Shown here piece after piece: positions 816 to 30,531 of a stretch of 51,527 nt of DNA. The number at the start of each line of letters is the position of its first letter. The stretch's first letter is position 1. The stretch is from Ignavibacteria bacterium. Lineage in GTDB: Bacteria > Bacteroidota > Ignavibacteria > Kapaibacteriales > UBA2268. The stretch lies in assembly GCA_012518115.1 (NCBI GenBank), contig JAAYTD010000022.1, positions 1 to 51,527 on the forward strand, written 5' to 3'. Under the pieces are notes generated by a model. It searched no databases. It had not been told where the DNA came from and saw only the letters and a list, made by a program, of their open reading frames with translations. The position numbers and the translations under genes were made by a program.

Positions 816-866
816 AAATTTCCCTTTGGGACGAAGGGGTGGCAAACAAAGTTTGACGGGGTAGTT
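816..866 (-). repeat. Module A intergenic repeat, copy 1 (inverted)
   Basis: The reverse complement reads AACTACCCCGTCAAAC, then TTTGCCACCCCTTCGTCCC, then AAAGGGAAATT. This is the same unit of about 50 bp seen at 8036, 9769, 11586, 11809, 22651, 25468, 25609 and (inverted) 30297. It lies between the metK terminator and the gcvT promoter. The rest of the 739-1068 gap holds no gene. Confidence 0.85.
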
Positions 867-3805: not shown

Positions 3806-3888
3806 TATCTTTGTAATATCAAGTTTTCAATAAATGTAATATAACTTGATAAATTCTGCTTGAAACAGAAAAAGCGGAGTTTGTTTTT
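3806..3888 (+). promoter_or_regulatory. Shared 5' leader cassette, copy 1
   Basis: -7 box TATCTTTG (3806-3813), then stem-loop I with arms TCAAGTT (3819-3825) and AACTTGA (3843-3849). Element II follows: TCTGCTT (3855-3861) can pair with AAGCGGA (about 3872-3878, one G-U), and is followed by GTTTGTTTTT. The same order is found at 5230-5340 and 6329-6430. Given the promoter position, stem-loop I would form the very 5' end of the mRNA. Confidence 0.65.
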
Positions 3889-3914
3889 AAATAAATATAA
3901 AGGAGAAAACAAGT

Positions 3915-5099
3915 ATGAAAAACTTAATTAAAACAATTCTAACCATGACGCTAATGCTTTTGCTTACTACTCCAAGCCAAGCACAATTTGGTAAATTTCT
4001 TAATAAAGCAAAGGAAAAAGTAAAAGAGACTGTTAAGGAAAAAACAAAAGAAGAGGTTGAACATCAGGCTGATAAAGCTGTTAAAAAAACAGAAGCAAAA
4101 GTAACTGGAAGTCCTGAAGCAGCAGCGGCGGCAGAAGCAGCTGAGGATCTTCCAGAAATCTATTCTATAGCAAAAACTAGCTATGCTTATGGTCCTGATT
4201 CGCCACTCGAAGAAGTACTTTATCCTGAATTAGCATTTAGATTAAAAAAGTGCCTTGGTCATATAAAAGATGGTGAAGTTGAGTTGGCATCAACTACATG
4301 GAATTATAATGTTGTAAAAATTATGGGATTTGTAAAAAAAAGGGATTTGAATGAAGAACGATTAAAAGTTTGGGAAGATGAATTTAATAGGGTGGAAAAG
4401 ATTTATACTAAATTGATTAGAGGCGATGCACCCGAACCTACAGGAGACAAAAAGACTGATGCTTATAACTATATGGCTTATAATATAGAGAAAGCTAAAA
4501 AAGCTAGTGACCGAGATAAAATGAAAGAATTCTTTACCACTGCTGCTATGTCCCGCGAAATTTACATAAAAAACGATCGAATTTCAGAAAGTGATCCTAA
4601 GTATAAAGAAATATATGATGAACTAGTAGCTTTAAGAAAAAAATTAGAACCTTATGGATATGATAATTTGATTAAGGTTAATACCTTTGCAGAGTCTAAA
4701 GCTGAATGGAAAGATACATTTGAAAAAGAAGAGGCAAAACAATATAATTTGTTTTTTGAAGATAATTACACTGGAGCTGATGGTGATGAACTGAAAAAAT
4801 TAGCTGCAAATGCTGTAACTAAAAAATATAAGGCAACAAAAATTATACATTCTAACTTTAAACATGGTTGGTTTACAAATGAAGAACGTAGTGGGCAACG
4901 GGTAACAGGACACAACAAAAAATGTCGTGTTATGATTTATTTTATAGCAGATAAAAAATATTATAGCTGTGAAACAAGTTTTGTAATGCAAGCACCTGTA
5001 GGAAGTAATTTTACAAAAACTGAGTGGCCTGGATTAACTAAGCCTATAGAAGTTCCTGAAGAAATATTTAACAGGGAATTTAAAAAGTTTAAGAAATAG
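3915..5099 (+). CDS. Exported protein of unknown function, leader-cassette gene 1
   Basis: A 394-residue protein that I do not recognise. The signal peptide is about residues 1-23 (hydrophobic TLMLLLTT, cleavage near SQA/QFG). Next comes a Lys/Glu-rich amphipathic helix, FGKFLNKAKEKVKETVKEK onward to about residue 65, likely coiled coil or surface-associated, then an Ala/Glu linker. The mature body (about 80-270) is mostly helical and charged, and the C-terminal part (about 290-394) looks like a small beta-rich domain with RVMIYFIADKKYYSC. There is no lipobox and no T9SS domain, so the periplasm is the likely location. A Shine-Dalgarno AGGAG (3901-3905) supports this ATG. It ends at a strong terminator, as a one-gene unit. 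Confidence 0.8.
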   Translation: MKNLIKTILTMTLMLLLTTPSQAQFGKFLNKAKEKVKETVKEKTKEEVEHQADKAVKKTEAKVTGSPEAAAAAEAAEDLPEIYSIAKTSYAYGPDSPLEEVLYPELAFRLKKCLGHIKDGEVELASTTWNYNVVKIMGFVKKRDLNEERLKVWEDEFNRVEKIYTKLIRGDAPEPTGDKKTDAYNYMAYNIEKAKKASDRDKMKEFFTTAAMSREIYIKNDRISESDPKYKEIYDELVALRKKLEPYGYDNLIKVNTFAESKAEWKDTFEKEEAKQYNLFFEDNYTGADGDELKKLAANAVTKKYKATKIIHSNFKHGWFTNEERSGQRVTGHNKKCRVMIYFIADKKYYSCETSFVMQAPVGSNFTKTEWPGLTKPIEVPEEIFNREFKKFKK

Positions 5100-5112
5100 T
5101 TTTTCTAACTAG

Positions 5113-5144
5113 CTCCGCAAATGTATTTTTGCGGAGTTTTTTTT
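5113..5144 (+). terminator. Intrinsic terminator after cassette gene 1
   Basis: Stem CTCCGCAAA/TTTGCGGAG with loop TGTATT and eight T. It is almost identical, flanks included, to the terminator at 7955-7985. Confidence 0.93.
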
Positions 5145-5229
5145 ATCTTCAATTTATGCAAAAATCTCAACACGTTTGCATAATTTCTTTACTTTTTTAC
5201 TTTTTTCTTGTTTTTTAGAAAAAATACTT

Positions 5230-5340
5230 TTTGTTTTTACTTTTGCTATTATTATTTTTGTAATGTCAAGTTTGCTATAATATAACTTGATGCACTTCTG
5301 TTTAAAATTGGAAAGAAAAATTTGTTTTTTATAATAGTTT
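5230..5340 (+). promoter_or_regulatory. Shared 5' leader cassette, copy 2
   Basis: TTTG (5230-5233), 19 bases, then TATTTTTG (5253-5260): a perfect Bacteroidota promoter. Stem-loop I has arms TCAAGTT (5266-5272) and AACTTGA (5284-5290) with a shorter 11-base loop. Element II (ACTTCTG, then AAAGAAAAATTTG and TTTTTT) is present but its hairpin is degraded. The next hundred bases, to the start codon at 5445, are AT-rich with nothing else visible. Confidence 0.7.
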
Positions 5341-5444
5341 TTTTTAATTGATAGGAATATATGATTTGTTTTAATAATGCTTAAATATAACAGAATTTAT
5401 CTGTTTATAATTTTTTGTTAATCTAATATAGGAGATATCCTACA

Positions 5445-6206
5445 ATGAAAACGCTAAAAAGCAAAAAACAAATTTCTTTCTTAACTTTATGTTTTCTCCT
5501 TCCTTTCTTATTTATTTCTTGTGAGGACGATAATATAACGTCGCCATCAAATAATGGCAAGCAGCTATTATTTAATTCTTTGTTGTCGGATACAATTAAT
5601 GCCGATAATATTATGGCGCTTTTCAAGTTATCTTCAATGTACACAGGTTATTATTCTGTATTTAGTGAAGGTTCATTTGCGTGGGCATATTTAACAGATG
5701 GTGTGGATCTTGTTCCAGCTAATATCAAATGTAATGGTGAACTAATGCGAGATATGTCGCCGGATACTTCAGGTGGACAATATGAATTCTTTTCGCGAAA
5801 ACATGTTAATAATTATGAGTTTGTAATTCCTAATTATTTAGGACAGAAACTTATTGTTATTAATGAAACAGATGTTCCTACGCTTAAAGTTTTACAGTAC
5901 ACTAATGGGGACACTGTTTCTTTAACAAATGGTTTTACGTTAAATTATTCAGGTTATAATCCTGATATTCCGATAAACTTATGTATATATTTAGAAGGAC
6001 AGCAGCCTGTAAATAAAGAGCTAGTTGCTAATGGTTCTATAGAGTTCACACCCGATATGCTTAAGAAATTAGTTGGCAATAAAAGCAAAGTATGGCTAAA
6101 GTTGTCTCTAATACAAGATTCAAGTAAAATAGTAGATATTGGAAATAATAAACAAGCTTTTATTATAATTGAGACTATGACAGGTCTTGGTTTTGTAGTT
6201 AAGTAA
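5445..6206 (+). CDS. Lipoprotein of unknown function, leader-cassette gene 2
   Basis: A 253-residue protein that I do not recognise. The N-terminus MKTLKSKKQ is followed by a hydrophobic stretch and the lipobox LFISC at residues 23-27, giving a lipidated Cys27 followed by EDDN. The acidic residues after the Cys resemble the lipoprotein export signal that sends Bacteroidota lipoproteins to the cell surface (inference). The mature part looks beta-rich, with blocks such as FVIPNYLGQKLIVIN and GFTLNYSGYNPDIPINLCIYL, suggesting one or two beta-sandwich domains. A Shine-Dalgarno GGAG lies about 10 bases before the ATG. It is a single-gene unit between the second leader and the terminator at 6223. 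Confidence 0.8.
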   Translation: MKTLKSKKQISFLTLCFLLPFLFISCEDDNITSPSNNGKQLLFNSLLSDTINADNIMALFKLSSMYTGYYSVFSEGSFAWAYLTDGVDLVPANIKCNGELMRDMSPDTSGGQYEFFSRKHVNNYEFVIPNYLGQKLIVINETDVPTLKVLQYTNGDTVSLTNGFTLNYSGYNPDIPINLCIYLEGQQPVNKELVANGSIEFTPDMLKKLVGNKSKVWLKLSLIQDSSKIVDIGNNKQAFIIIETMTGLGFVVK

Positions 6207-6222
6207 TTTTTCGTTTGTTTTT

Positions 6223-6262
6223 GCTCCGCTCAACGACTAACAACGAGCGGAGCTATATTTTT
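6223..6262 (+). terminator. Intrinsic terminator after cassette gene 2
   Basis: Perfect 9-bp stem GCTCCGCTC/GAGCGGAGC (6223-6231 and 6245-6253) followed by TATATTTTT. The stem shares CTCCGC/GCGGAG with the terminators of cassette genes 1 and 3. Confidence 0.85.
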
Positions 6263-6263
6263 C

Positions 6264-6287
6264 GCTCATTGAACTTGTTGAAATGAA
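6264..6287 (+). repeat. Module D imperfect palindrome, copy 2
   Basis: GCTCATTGAACTTGTTGAAA then TGAAC; arms TCATT and AATGA. It lies directly after a terminator, as copy 1 does. Confidence 0.55.
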
Positions 6288-6328
6288 CAATTTACTTAAA
6301 ACTATTTGGGAAACTTTTTTAATGGCTT

Positions 6329-6430
6329 TTTGATAAAAAAGTTATTATTATATTTTTGTAATGTCAAGTTTTCAACAATTGTAATATAACTTGATGTACT
6401 TCTGCTCCAACCAGAAAAGCAGAGTTTTTT
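6329..6430 (+). promoter_or_regulatory. Shared 5' leader cassette, copy 3
   Basis: TTTG (6329-6332), 18 bases, TATTTTTG (6351-6358). Stem-loop I has arms TCAAGTT (6364-6370) and AACTTGA (6388-6394), extendable by G-U pairs. Element II is a clean terminator-like hairpin: TCTGCT/AGCAGA (6401-6406 and 6418-6423) followed by seven T. This is the best-preserved copy and could act as an attenuator. Confidence 0.72.
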
Positions 6431-6453
6431 TCACACTATTAAAATTAAATAAT

Positions 6454-7941
6454 ATGAAAAACTTACTTAAATTCAGTCTGTTAATCTTTTTTCTTTGTTT
6501 TTTTCCTTTAATTTCCGCTTCTAATGTTGATGGCACTGCTAAGCCTGTTATAAAATGCAGGATATTTATAGATAACTATATGACTTGTATAGGTTGTGTG
6601 GAGCCTACTAAGATGAAGAAGCTACAGAGTTTAGAACTTTCTAACTCGGTTCTTGATTTGCAAGTATTTTATTCGGGTAATGTTAATTCTAAAGATTATT
6701 TAGATGAGCTAAAGAAGAACTATGGTCTGAATACATCAACTTTTATTTATGATCCTAAAGGCTTTTATGCTAAGCACTATAATGTAGATTATTTTGCGAG
6801 TATAATTATTACAAATGCCGAAGATGAAGTTCTTTTGAAAGAAGAAATTATTGATATAAATAAATATATTAATTTTATAAAAGATTTAGATTCAAAAATA
6901 GATTTGCAAAAATTTTATGCTAGTAAGGTTAAGGGCTTGAAATTCTTAGAAAAAATAGTCTTAAAAGATAAAGAAAATAATACTTTTGAACTATCCACTT
7001 TTTTTAACTTCTTTTTTAGTGAAACTAACAATAAATATTTAATTCAAACTAAAAGCTTAGAAGAATTTTATATTTTTGATAGTACAGGAAAGTTATCACA
7101 AAAAATAATTAATGATTATGAAGATATATCTTATGGCAGAAAAGATAGAATTATGAATAGAGACTATTTATGTTTTATAGATGAGAATACCTTAGTTTGG
7201 TCAACAGTATTTATGTTTATGACTGATGGAAATCAAAACGCTGAAATGGATGTTGTAAGAAAAAATATATTACAGGATAAATTTGTGAAACACACTAAAA
7301 ATATTACTGCTGATTTAGCAGATAGAACAGCATTATATGGTGATTTTACAATGTTAAAAGATGGTCGTTTAATATTTAAGATATATCATTTTGATGATAT
7401 TTATTTAGATAGTACTTTTAAATTGTTAGCTCTTACTGATACAAATTATAATATAGTTAAGTACTTTGGCATTTCTGATACTTTAGCTAAGCATTATAGA
7501 CTTGGTAATATAATGAGTCTACCTTTTGTTGCTGAATATAATTCTGATATTTATTTTTTGCAAAACAATTCATTTTCTTTACAAAAATATGATAAGAATG
7601 GCGATTATCGTGAAACTATACATCTAGATTTACAAGCACATTATAAAATTTTCAAGAAAAGTTTTTCTGAGGAATTAGATAAACGTGAGTTTTTAGAATA
7701 TAATACGAATTATTATAGGACAATGGGTTTATTTATAGATAATGGTTTAATTTATGTATGGTATTGCAAGGGTGTGTCTGATCATTGCATAGATGTTCTT
7801 GATATGCAAGGCAATAGAGTTAAAGAAATTAAAATAGATTTGCCTTGTATGGTCAAGAGTATAAAAGACAACAAGATATTATTAACTAATTTATGGTGGA
7901 ATGACAAGAATGTTTCTTGTTATTGGTATGAAATAGAGTAG
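6454..7941 (+). CDS. Exported thioredoxin-like plus beta-propeller-like protein, leader-cassette gene 3
   Basis: A 495-residue protein. An upstream in-frame ATG at 6391 lies inside the leader stem, so the ATG at 6454, which opens directly on the signal peptide MKNLLKFSLLIFFLCFF (cleavage near ISA/SNV), is the likely start. Residues about 30-155 look like a thioredoxin fold: beta strand CRIFIDNYMTC, the dicysteine TCIGC, and later FASIIITNAEDEVLLKEEI. The remaining 330 residues show repeated units in which hydrophobic strands alternate with Asp/Gly turns (YIFDSTGKLSQKI, SLQKYDKNGDYRETI, IDVLDMQGNRVKEI), as in six-bladed NHL-like propeller proteins common in Bacteroidota. The domain calls are by pattern only. 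No T9SS domain is present. Confidence 0.75.
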   Translation: MKNLLKFSLLIFFLCFFPLISASNVDGTAKPVIKCRIFIDNYMTCIGCVEPTKMKKLQSLELSNSVLDLQVFYSGNVNSKDYLDELKKNYGLNTSTFIYDPKGFYAKHYNVDYFASIIITNAEDEVLLKEEIIDINKYINFIKDLDSKIDLQKFYASKVKGLKFLEKIVLKDKENNTFELSTFFNFFFSETNNKYLIQTKSLEEFYIFDSTGKLSQKIINDYEDISYGRKDRIMNRDYLCFIDENTLVWSTVFMFMTDGNQNAEMDVVRKNILQDKFVKHTKNITADLADRTALYGDFTMLKDGRLIFKIYHFDDIYLDSTFKLLALTDTNYNIVKYFGISDTLAKHYRLGNIMSLPFVAEYNSDIYFLQNNSFSLQKYDKNGDYRETIHLDLQAHYKIFKKSFSEELDKREFLEYNTNYYRTMGLFIDNGLIYVWYCKGVSDHCIDVLDMQGNRVKEIKIDLPCMVKSIKDNKILLTNLWWNDKNVSCYWYEIE

Positions 7942-7954
7942 TTTCTCTAGCTAG

Positions 7955-7985
7955 CTCCGCAAATGTATTTTTGCGGAGTTTTTTT
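7955..7985 (+). terminator. Intrinsic terminator after cassette gene 3
   Basis: Stem CTCCGCAAA/TTTGCGGAG followed by seven T. Including flanking bases, it matches the 5113-5144 terminator over nearly 40 bases. Confidence 0.93.
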
Positions 7986-7990
7986 ATTTT

Positions 7991-8088
7991 GTTCATTGAG
8001 TTTGTACTTCGACAGGCTCAGTAAGCATCGGAAATGACTACCCCGTCAGACTAGCGCTTGCCATCCCTTCTTTCCGAAAGGGAATTTT
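7991..8088 (+). repeat. Composite repeat: module D copy 3 joined to module A copy 2
   Basis: The D part (7991-8038) is a longer variant containing TTCGACAGGCTCAG between the outer arms TTCATT and AATGAC. Its last bases, GAC, are also the first bases of module A (8036-8088: GACTACCCCGTCAGAC through GAAAGGGAATTTT). The same D-A junction recurs at 25609. It sits between convergent genes. Confidence 0.75.
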
Positions 8089-9768: not shown

Positions 9769-9820
9769 AACTACCCCGTCAAACTTCGTTTGCCACCCCT
9801 TCGTCCCGAAGGGGAATTTT
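9769..9820 (+). repeat. Module A intergenic repeat, copy 3
   Basis: AACTACCCCGTCAAACTTCG, then TTTGCCACCCCTTCGTCCCG, then AAGGGGAATTTT: the most regular copy and a good consensus. The 9616-9946 gap also holds the minus-strand terminator at 9875 and no gene. Confidence 0.88.
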
Positions 9821-25385: not shown

Positions 25386-25678
25386 AAGGGGAATTTGCTA
25401 ACTTCACTGAACGGAAAAATTCTCCTCTTGAGAGGAGTACCTGCGAAGCAGGGGAGGTGTGGTAATAGACTACCCCGTCCGGCTTCGCCGTCCACCCCTT
25501 CTGAGAAGGGGAATTTACTAACTTCGCTGAACGGAAAATTCTCCTCTTGAGCGGAGTACCTGCGAAGCAGGGGAGGTGTGGTTATTTGGTCGTTGAGCGG
25601 AGCCGAAACGACTATCCCGTCAAGCTTCGTAGGGCGTGTCCGCGACACGCCCCGACATTCGTTCAAAGGGGAATTTTA
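25386..25678 (+). repeat. Repeat cluster: tail of A, C1-A7-C2-D4-A8
   Basis: Two direct copies of a unit of about 78 bp (25386-25463 and 25507-25583) contain GGGGAATTT, CTAACTTC, CTGAACGGAAAA and a CTCCTCTTGAG...GGAG hairpin, then ACCTGCGAAGCAGGGGAGGT. Module A copy 7 (25468-25517) lies between them. Module D copy 4 (25589-25612, arms GTCGTT/AACGAC) joins module A copy 8 (25609-25678), which contains a nested GGGCGTGTCC/GACACGCCC palindrome. Open frames across this stretch are repeat-derived, not genes. Confidence 0.85.
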
Positions 25679-30296: not shown

Positions 30297-30531
30297 AAAT
30301 TCCCCCTCGGGACGAAGGGGTGTCAAGCGCTAGCTTGACGGGGTAGTCTATTAAAAAAATTAACTACAAACCCCGTAGGGGTGAAATTATTATAGAAAAA
30401 TAATGCACAAAGAAAACAAACCCCGTAGGGGTGACACTAGCGCTTTCGTTACGGCTAATTAAAAATGTCACCCCTACGGGGTTTTATCAAAATTTGGCTT
30501 TTCATAATGCTATAATAATGTCATCCCTACG
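30297..30531. repeat. Composite repeat, inverted A9 with four B modules
   Basis: Module A copy 9 lies on the minus strand (30297-30351). It is followed by two plus-strand B units (30368, 30418) and two minus-strand B units (30461-30485, 30506-30531). The middle B units form a perfect 19-bp inverted repeat (30418-30436 and 30466-30484) with a 29-base loop. Read on the minus strand, 30531 down to about 30455 matches the B-B spacing at 22572. The element fills the gap between convergent genes; no gene was seen in 30218-30604. Confidence 0.85.

Follow-up and report, generated by a model that had tools for sequence, protein, structure and literature searches.

A seven-copy promoter-leader module of a Bacteroidota-type genome that may attenuate transcription

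Three genes are encoded next to each other on the forward strand of the analysed window, i.e., the whole stretch of 51,527 nt of DNA. Gene 1 (3915..5099) codes for a signal-peptide protein of 394 amino acids, for which no family above the cut-off and no homologue among 39 relatives were found. Gene 2 (5445..6206) encodes a protein of 253 amino acids with a lipoprotein-like signal and without family match. The product of gene 3 (6454..7941) is an exported protein of 495 amino acids with a CIGC motif near its N-terminus; a fold search for this protein was set aside, since the predicted model was too poor (pLDDT 38). No similarity was found among the proteins of genes 1, 2, and 3.

The stop codon and terminator of gene 1 (5097..5143, + strand) are nearly identical to those of gene 3 (7939..7985, + strand), as the sequence-only reading of this region had already claimed. 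The two regions share 96% over 47 nt, and the match begins exactly at the TAG stop codon. This terminator form (CTCCGC...GCGGAGTTTTT) was found at only two sites in the genome, namely behind genes 1 and 3, with a near copy behind the paralogue of gene 3 on contig C5. Gene 2 is followed by a terminator-like hairpin (GCTCCGCT...AGCGGAGC, 6223..6253, + strand) with a loop unlike those of genes 1 and 3.

Each of the three genes is preceded by a promoter and a stem-loop (H1), formed by TCAAGTT...AACTTGA at 3819-3849, 5266-5290, and 6364-6394. The loop measures 17, 11, and 17 nt, respectively, and always ends in TAATAT. In leader 1 the hairpin comprises AUCAAGUU/AACUUGAU (3818..3850, + strand). The shared promoter and stem reported earlier are well founded, as the exact stem occurs three times in the window versus 0.02 expected, a number which was reached in none of 100 shuffles. 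The -7 box is TATCTTTG in leader 1 (3806..3813, + strand) and TATTTTTG in leaders 2 and 3, and its distance to the stem is 5 nt in each case. Genes 2 and 3 have an exact -33 TTTG (TTTG-19-TATTTTTG, 5230..5260, and TTTG-18-TATTTTTG, 6329..6358, both on the + strand), and gene 1 has a partial one, TTAG, located 20 nt upstream. The consensus boxes of Bacteroidota (TTTG, TAnnTTTG) were taken from PMC7366714, while the spacing of 18-20 nt is the value seen in these leaders. From this promoter geometry, transcription would start at the foot of H1, about 5 nt past the -7 box. The full -33/-7 pair, TTTG-(18-20 nt)-TAnnTTTG, occurs 8 times in the window versus 2.4 expected. A perfect 7-bp hairpin at the same distance follows 7 of the 129 TAnnTTTG sites in the window, three of these being the leaders described here; a hairpin behind the promoter is no general feature of promoters in this window.

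The block common to the three leaders aligns from the -7 box through H1 to a U-run. In leaders 1 and 3, the TTCTG...GAAAA element belongs to a longer hairpin (H2), UUCUGC...GC(A/G)GAG, in which it makes up the 5′ arm and the loop; the U-run follows this hairpin. Intrinsic-terminator-like hairpins of this kind are located at 3854..3888 in leader 1 (UUCUGC...GCGGAG and UUUGUUUUU, -12.2 kcal/mol, 26 nt before the ATG at 3915) and at 6400..6431 in leader 3 (UUCUGC...GCAGAG and U7, -6.6 kcal/mol, 22 nt before the ATG at 6454), both on the + strand. The H2 region of leader 2 (5296..5330, + strand) is degenerate and without a stable terminator (-1.7 kcal/mol), and the ATG at 5445 follows more than 100 nt further downstream. 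The same ordered set, which the sequence-only reading had assigned to all three genes, is therefore complete in leaders 1 and 3 and lacks the H2 hairpin in leader 2. That reading had also recognized the TTCTG...GAAAA element followed by T-runs, which is indeed present, and had missed the terminator-like hairpin directly before the start codon. A simple terminator scan, which accepts loops of up to 8 nt, passed over the leader hairpins owing to their longer loops.

A covariance model (R1) that was based solely on the three leaders of the window identified four further copies in the same genome with scores of 47-68 bits, which answers the genome search suggested beforehand. In a second search, a two-hairpin model built from all seven copies (R2) recovered these seven and otherwise one match with an E-value of 2.4. 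The 2.48 Mb genome thus contains seven copies in total, which supports the earlier supposition to the extent that a regulatory shell was copied independently of the protein. The first of the further copies, C5, is located upstream of the only paralogue of gene 3 in the genome (76%). Leader, start, and terminator are common to both genes, which apparently reflects a whole-gene duplication. Copy C6 precedes a gene for a secreted protein which is unrelated to the others. The remaining two, C42a and C42b, are arranged in tandem upstream of a gene encoding a class 3 (Firmicute-type) fructose-1,6-bisphosphatase (L136:1424-3382(-)). A search of six near relatives gave no match to this enzyme, and its gene is a candidate for horizontal acquisition. 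The C42a leader has no gene of its own and runs straight into the apparent 3′ half of a gene 3-type terminator (35/43 bases). In the alignment of all seven copies, conservation begins at the -7 box and stops at the U-run, and the flanks and the unrelated genes are not alignable.

H2 with its U-run is present in five of the seven copies (leaders 1 and 3, C5, C6, and C42a) with folding energies of -6.6 to -12.8 kcal/mol. A terminator-like hairpin with a U-run between promoter and start codon is one of the features of intrinsic-terminator attenuator leaders. The start codon follows about 16-26 nt past H2 in four of the five, the fifth being the gene-less C42a. H2 is missing in leader 2 and in C42b (-1.5 kcal/mol), and it is in just these two that more than 100 nt separate the leader from the start codon. 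A general signal for exported proteins, one of the functions considered at the outset, does not fit these data, as no more than seven copies exist in 2.48 Mb, two of them precede the gene of a cytosolic enzyme, fructose-1,6-bisphosphatase, and the leaders of gene 3 and C5, which belong to paralogous genes, do not count as independent cases.

Some further sequence features were observed around these copies. A tail of the form TTCATTGA(A/G)(C/T)TTGT is found after the terminators of genes 2 and 3 (6265-6278 and 7992-8005) and of C42a (on L136, in the stretch that separates its two leaders); taken by itself, the motif is no more frequent in the window than expected by chance. A separate interspersed repeat, approximately ACTACCCCGTCAAACTTCGTTTGCCACCCCTTCGTCCCGAAGGGGAATTTTA, has six copies in the window (847-865(-), 8037-8055(+), 9770-9788(+), 25469-25487(+), 25611-25629(+), and 30329-30347(-)) versus 0.02 expected, and relatives of it are also present behind the C5 and C6 genes. 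Behind the C6 leader, in the region L137:3305-5042, a second gene is weakly thioredoxin-like, with a Pfam E-value of 0.0016, which is below the cut-off. Together with the CIGC motif of gene 3, a redox role common to the genes of the leader would be possible.

Outside this genome, R1 did not detect the leader in 39 near genomes, where the top score was 35 bits, nor was it found in the same-genus genome G001. In a synteny comparison, the contig of the same-genus genome stops just after hslV. The R2 searches of 122 other genomes of the order and of a sample of 394 genomes of the phylum, both run with strict filters which lose weak matches, gave no convincing match. The best outside matches (G017, G079, and G188) were rejected, as they are at chance level for the number of genomes searched, and the module was not seen in the outside-match sequences that were inspected. 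Matches of a broad pattern scan of genome contigs were scattered over all phyla and taken as chance. A scan of the region with the Rfam covariance models gave no leader match at E-values up to 5, and nothing relevant was found in phages, plasmids, and viral contigs. The family is restricted to this genome among those searched; the expectation of copies in this or related genomes was confirmed by the four copies in the former and failed in the sampled relatives. The leader family is real, comprises seven copies, and is unmatched in Rfam, and from these features we infer its function.

In the seven-copy alignment, 91% of the H1 and H2 cells are paired in comparison to 30-47% with slid partners, counts which lean toward this structure due to one N inserted in two rows for the register of the H2 arm. 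For H1, 96% of the cells in this alignment are paired. Most substitutions in H1 and H2 are compatible with G-U pairing, and all of the support is one-sided, e.g., from C-G to U-G. Covariation of the stems had been proposed as a check; across the seven copies of this one genome, two-sided changes were found in no pair, and shuffles within columns score as well as the real pairing. The pair counts may therefore be called compatible with the structure, and are not proof of it.

Several regulatory mechanisms were considered for the leader. A conserved antiterminator was not found: the alternative pairing of UUCUG with CAGAA is paired in 83% of the cells, with a stability no better than that of shuffles. 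Sequestration of the start codon by the 5′ part of H1 was rejected, as the duplex energies are no better than those of shuffled starts (5-77% of the shuffles equalled them). A leader peptide was likewise discarded, since the ATG at the junction of -7 box and H1 is not kept (ATA in leader 1, ACG in C5). Control by a NusG paralogue was dismissed on the basis of a single PF02357 match in the genome, located beside a SecE-like gene. For ANTAR control, no PF03861 match was found at E ≤ 0.1, in a search whose control recovered the family weakly and in few genomes. Integron gene cassettes were excluded by eye, because TCAAGTT/AACTTGA and the neighboring bases do not fit attC-type boxes (RYYYAAC/GTTRRRY).

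The explanation which we tentatively prefer, with a probability of roughly 0.45, is a lineage-specific promoter-leader module, present in seven copies in one Bacteroidota-type genome, that attenuates transcription. A promoter of the sigma-ABfr type would start the RNA at the foot of H1. In the complete form, transcription would then meet H2 as an intrinsic terminator, with a distance of about 16-26 nt from the end of its U-run to the start codon. Termination at about 70 nt would be the fate of most transcripts, and the resulting short RNA would carry a protected hairpin at its 5′ end and a terminator at its 3′ end. The mRNA would be the read-through product, and the leader would damp or gate expression by transcription attenuation. 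In leaders 1 and 3, C5, and C6, the stretch from the U-run to the ATG is too short for another promoter. Either the gene is thus reached by read-through of H2, or its true start is located elsewhere, and attenuation accompanied by the release of a short RNA is the best reading. Constant damping of expression without regulation would be fully compatible with these observations. The shell, which consists of the leader and, in the case of genes 1, 3, and C5, of the terminator as well, may have spread via gene duplication and recombination between shells. Gene 3 would have been duplicated, and recombination between homologous flanks would swap the enclosed gene. An excision between leader and terminator could account for the shell without a gene at C42, and two copies would have lost H2. 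Gene 3 duplication combined with flank recombination is presumably the simplest account of shell sharing. It seems unlikely that the module is an as yet undescribed RNA regulator which arose in this lineage, with a promoter-hairpin-terminator cassette spreading between unrelated genes, attenuating each of them under one shared trans-acting signal and releasing a family of much alike RNAs of about 70 nt.

Among the competing explanations, the one that survives best, albeit somewhat improbable itself, takes the shells as functionally unremarkable. In this case an ordinary promoter and the first transcribed bases were carried along by recent duplication or recombination, and the hairpins hitch-hike. 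The sole datable pair, gene 3 and its C5 paralogue, agrees with this, as the values for the leader (82%), the spacer (84%), and the third positions of conserved codons (84%) are alike and the leader in this pair is not visibly slower than neutral sites. Furthermore, H1 of C5 contains two mismatches and is not predicted to form, while H2 of C5 is intact. The confidence in the attenuator reading is limited mainly because the leader diverges like neutral sites and H1 is broken in C5. The decay of H2 in leader 2 and C42b, the occurrence in only one of the genomes searched, and the likeness of genes 1 and 3 in their shell down to the stop codon also speak for unremarkable shells. However, the region from the -7 box to the U-run is alignable over all seven copies, in contrast to the flanks and unrelated genes, and the changes in H1 mainly keep the pairing.

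The terminated RNA of about 70 nt, with its 5′ hairpin, single-stranded middle, and terminator, might instead be what matters, the genes being passengers of a multi-copy trans-acting sRNA family. Promoter and intrinsic terminator make up the canonical layout of Bacteroides intergenic sRNAs (PMC7366714), several copies exist within one genome, and C42a is not followed by a gene of its own. Nevertheless, such a family is distinctly unlikely, since in four of the seven copies the distance to the start codon is about 16-26 nt, too little for a separate promoter, no conserved single-stranded seed is seen in the loops, which vary in length and sequence, and the 5′ part pairs with its own start regions no better than shuffles. 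H2, as a terminator-like hairpin placed immediately ahead of the start codon, is more suggestive of attenuation or a leader-derived sRNA than of stabilization of the 5′ end. A protective H1 at the first nucleotides, shielding the mRNA from 5′-dependent decay with a non-terminating H2, is very improbable, even though H1 starts about 5 nt past the -7 box in all copies and is highly paired, as H1 is broken in C5 and H2 with its U-run is left unexplained.

The predicted attenuating module can be compared with several known systems. With Bacteroides intergenic sRNAs such as GibS it has the sigma-ABfr-type promoter, the predicted short RNA, and the intrinsic terminator in common, and C42a fits this layout best, but most of the copies lead straight into a gene and a conserved seed was not seen. 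ANTAR targets consist of two successive small hairpins, the second of which overlaps a terminator. The module resembles EutV-type leaders in this arrangement, whereas its H1 loop is variable with 11-21 nt and no ANTAR protein was found in the genome. UpxY acts on premature termination within the 5′ leader (PMC7819879). This termination, predicted here, is the feature common to leaders of UpxY, LoaP, and RfaH, but the present genome has a single NusG and the leaders precede single genes instead of long operons. Leader attenuators controlled by proteins or riboswitches are alike in the promoter, the 5′ structure, the terminator-like hairpin, and the start codon soon after, while the module described here has no recognizable aptamer, leader peptide, conserved antiterminator, or Rfam match, and it precedes unrelated genes in one genome only. 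Regulatory RNAs are usually spotted by their deep conservation, whereas here whole, decayed, and gene-less copies coexist within a small family. If the module works, it offers a view of the birth of a leader regulon and of its recruitment of unrelated genes.
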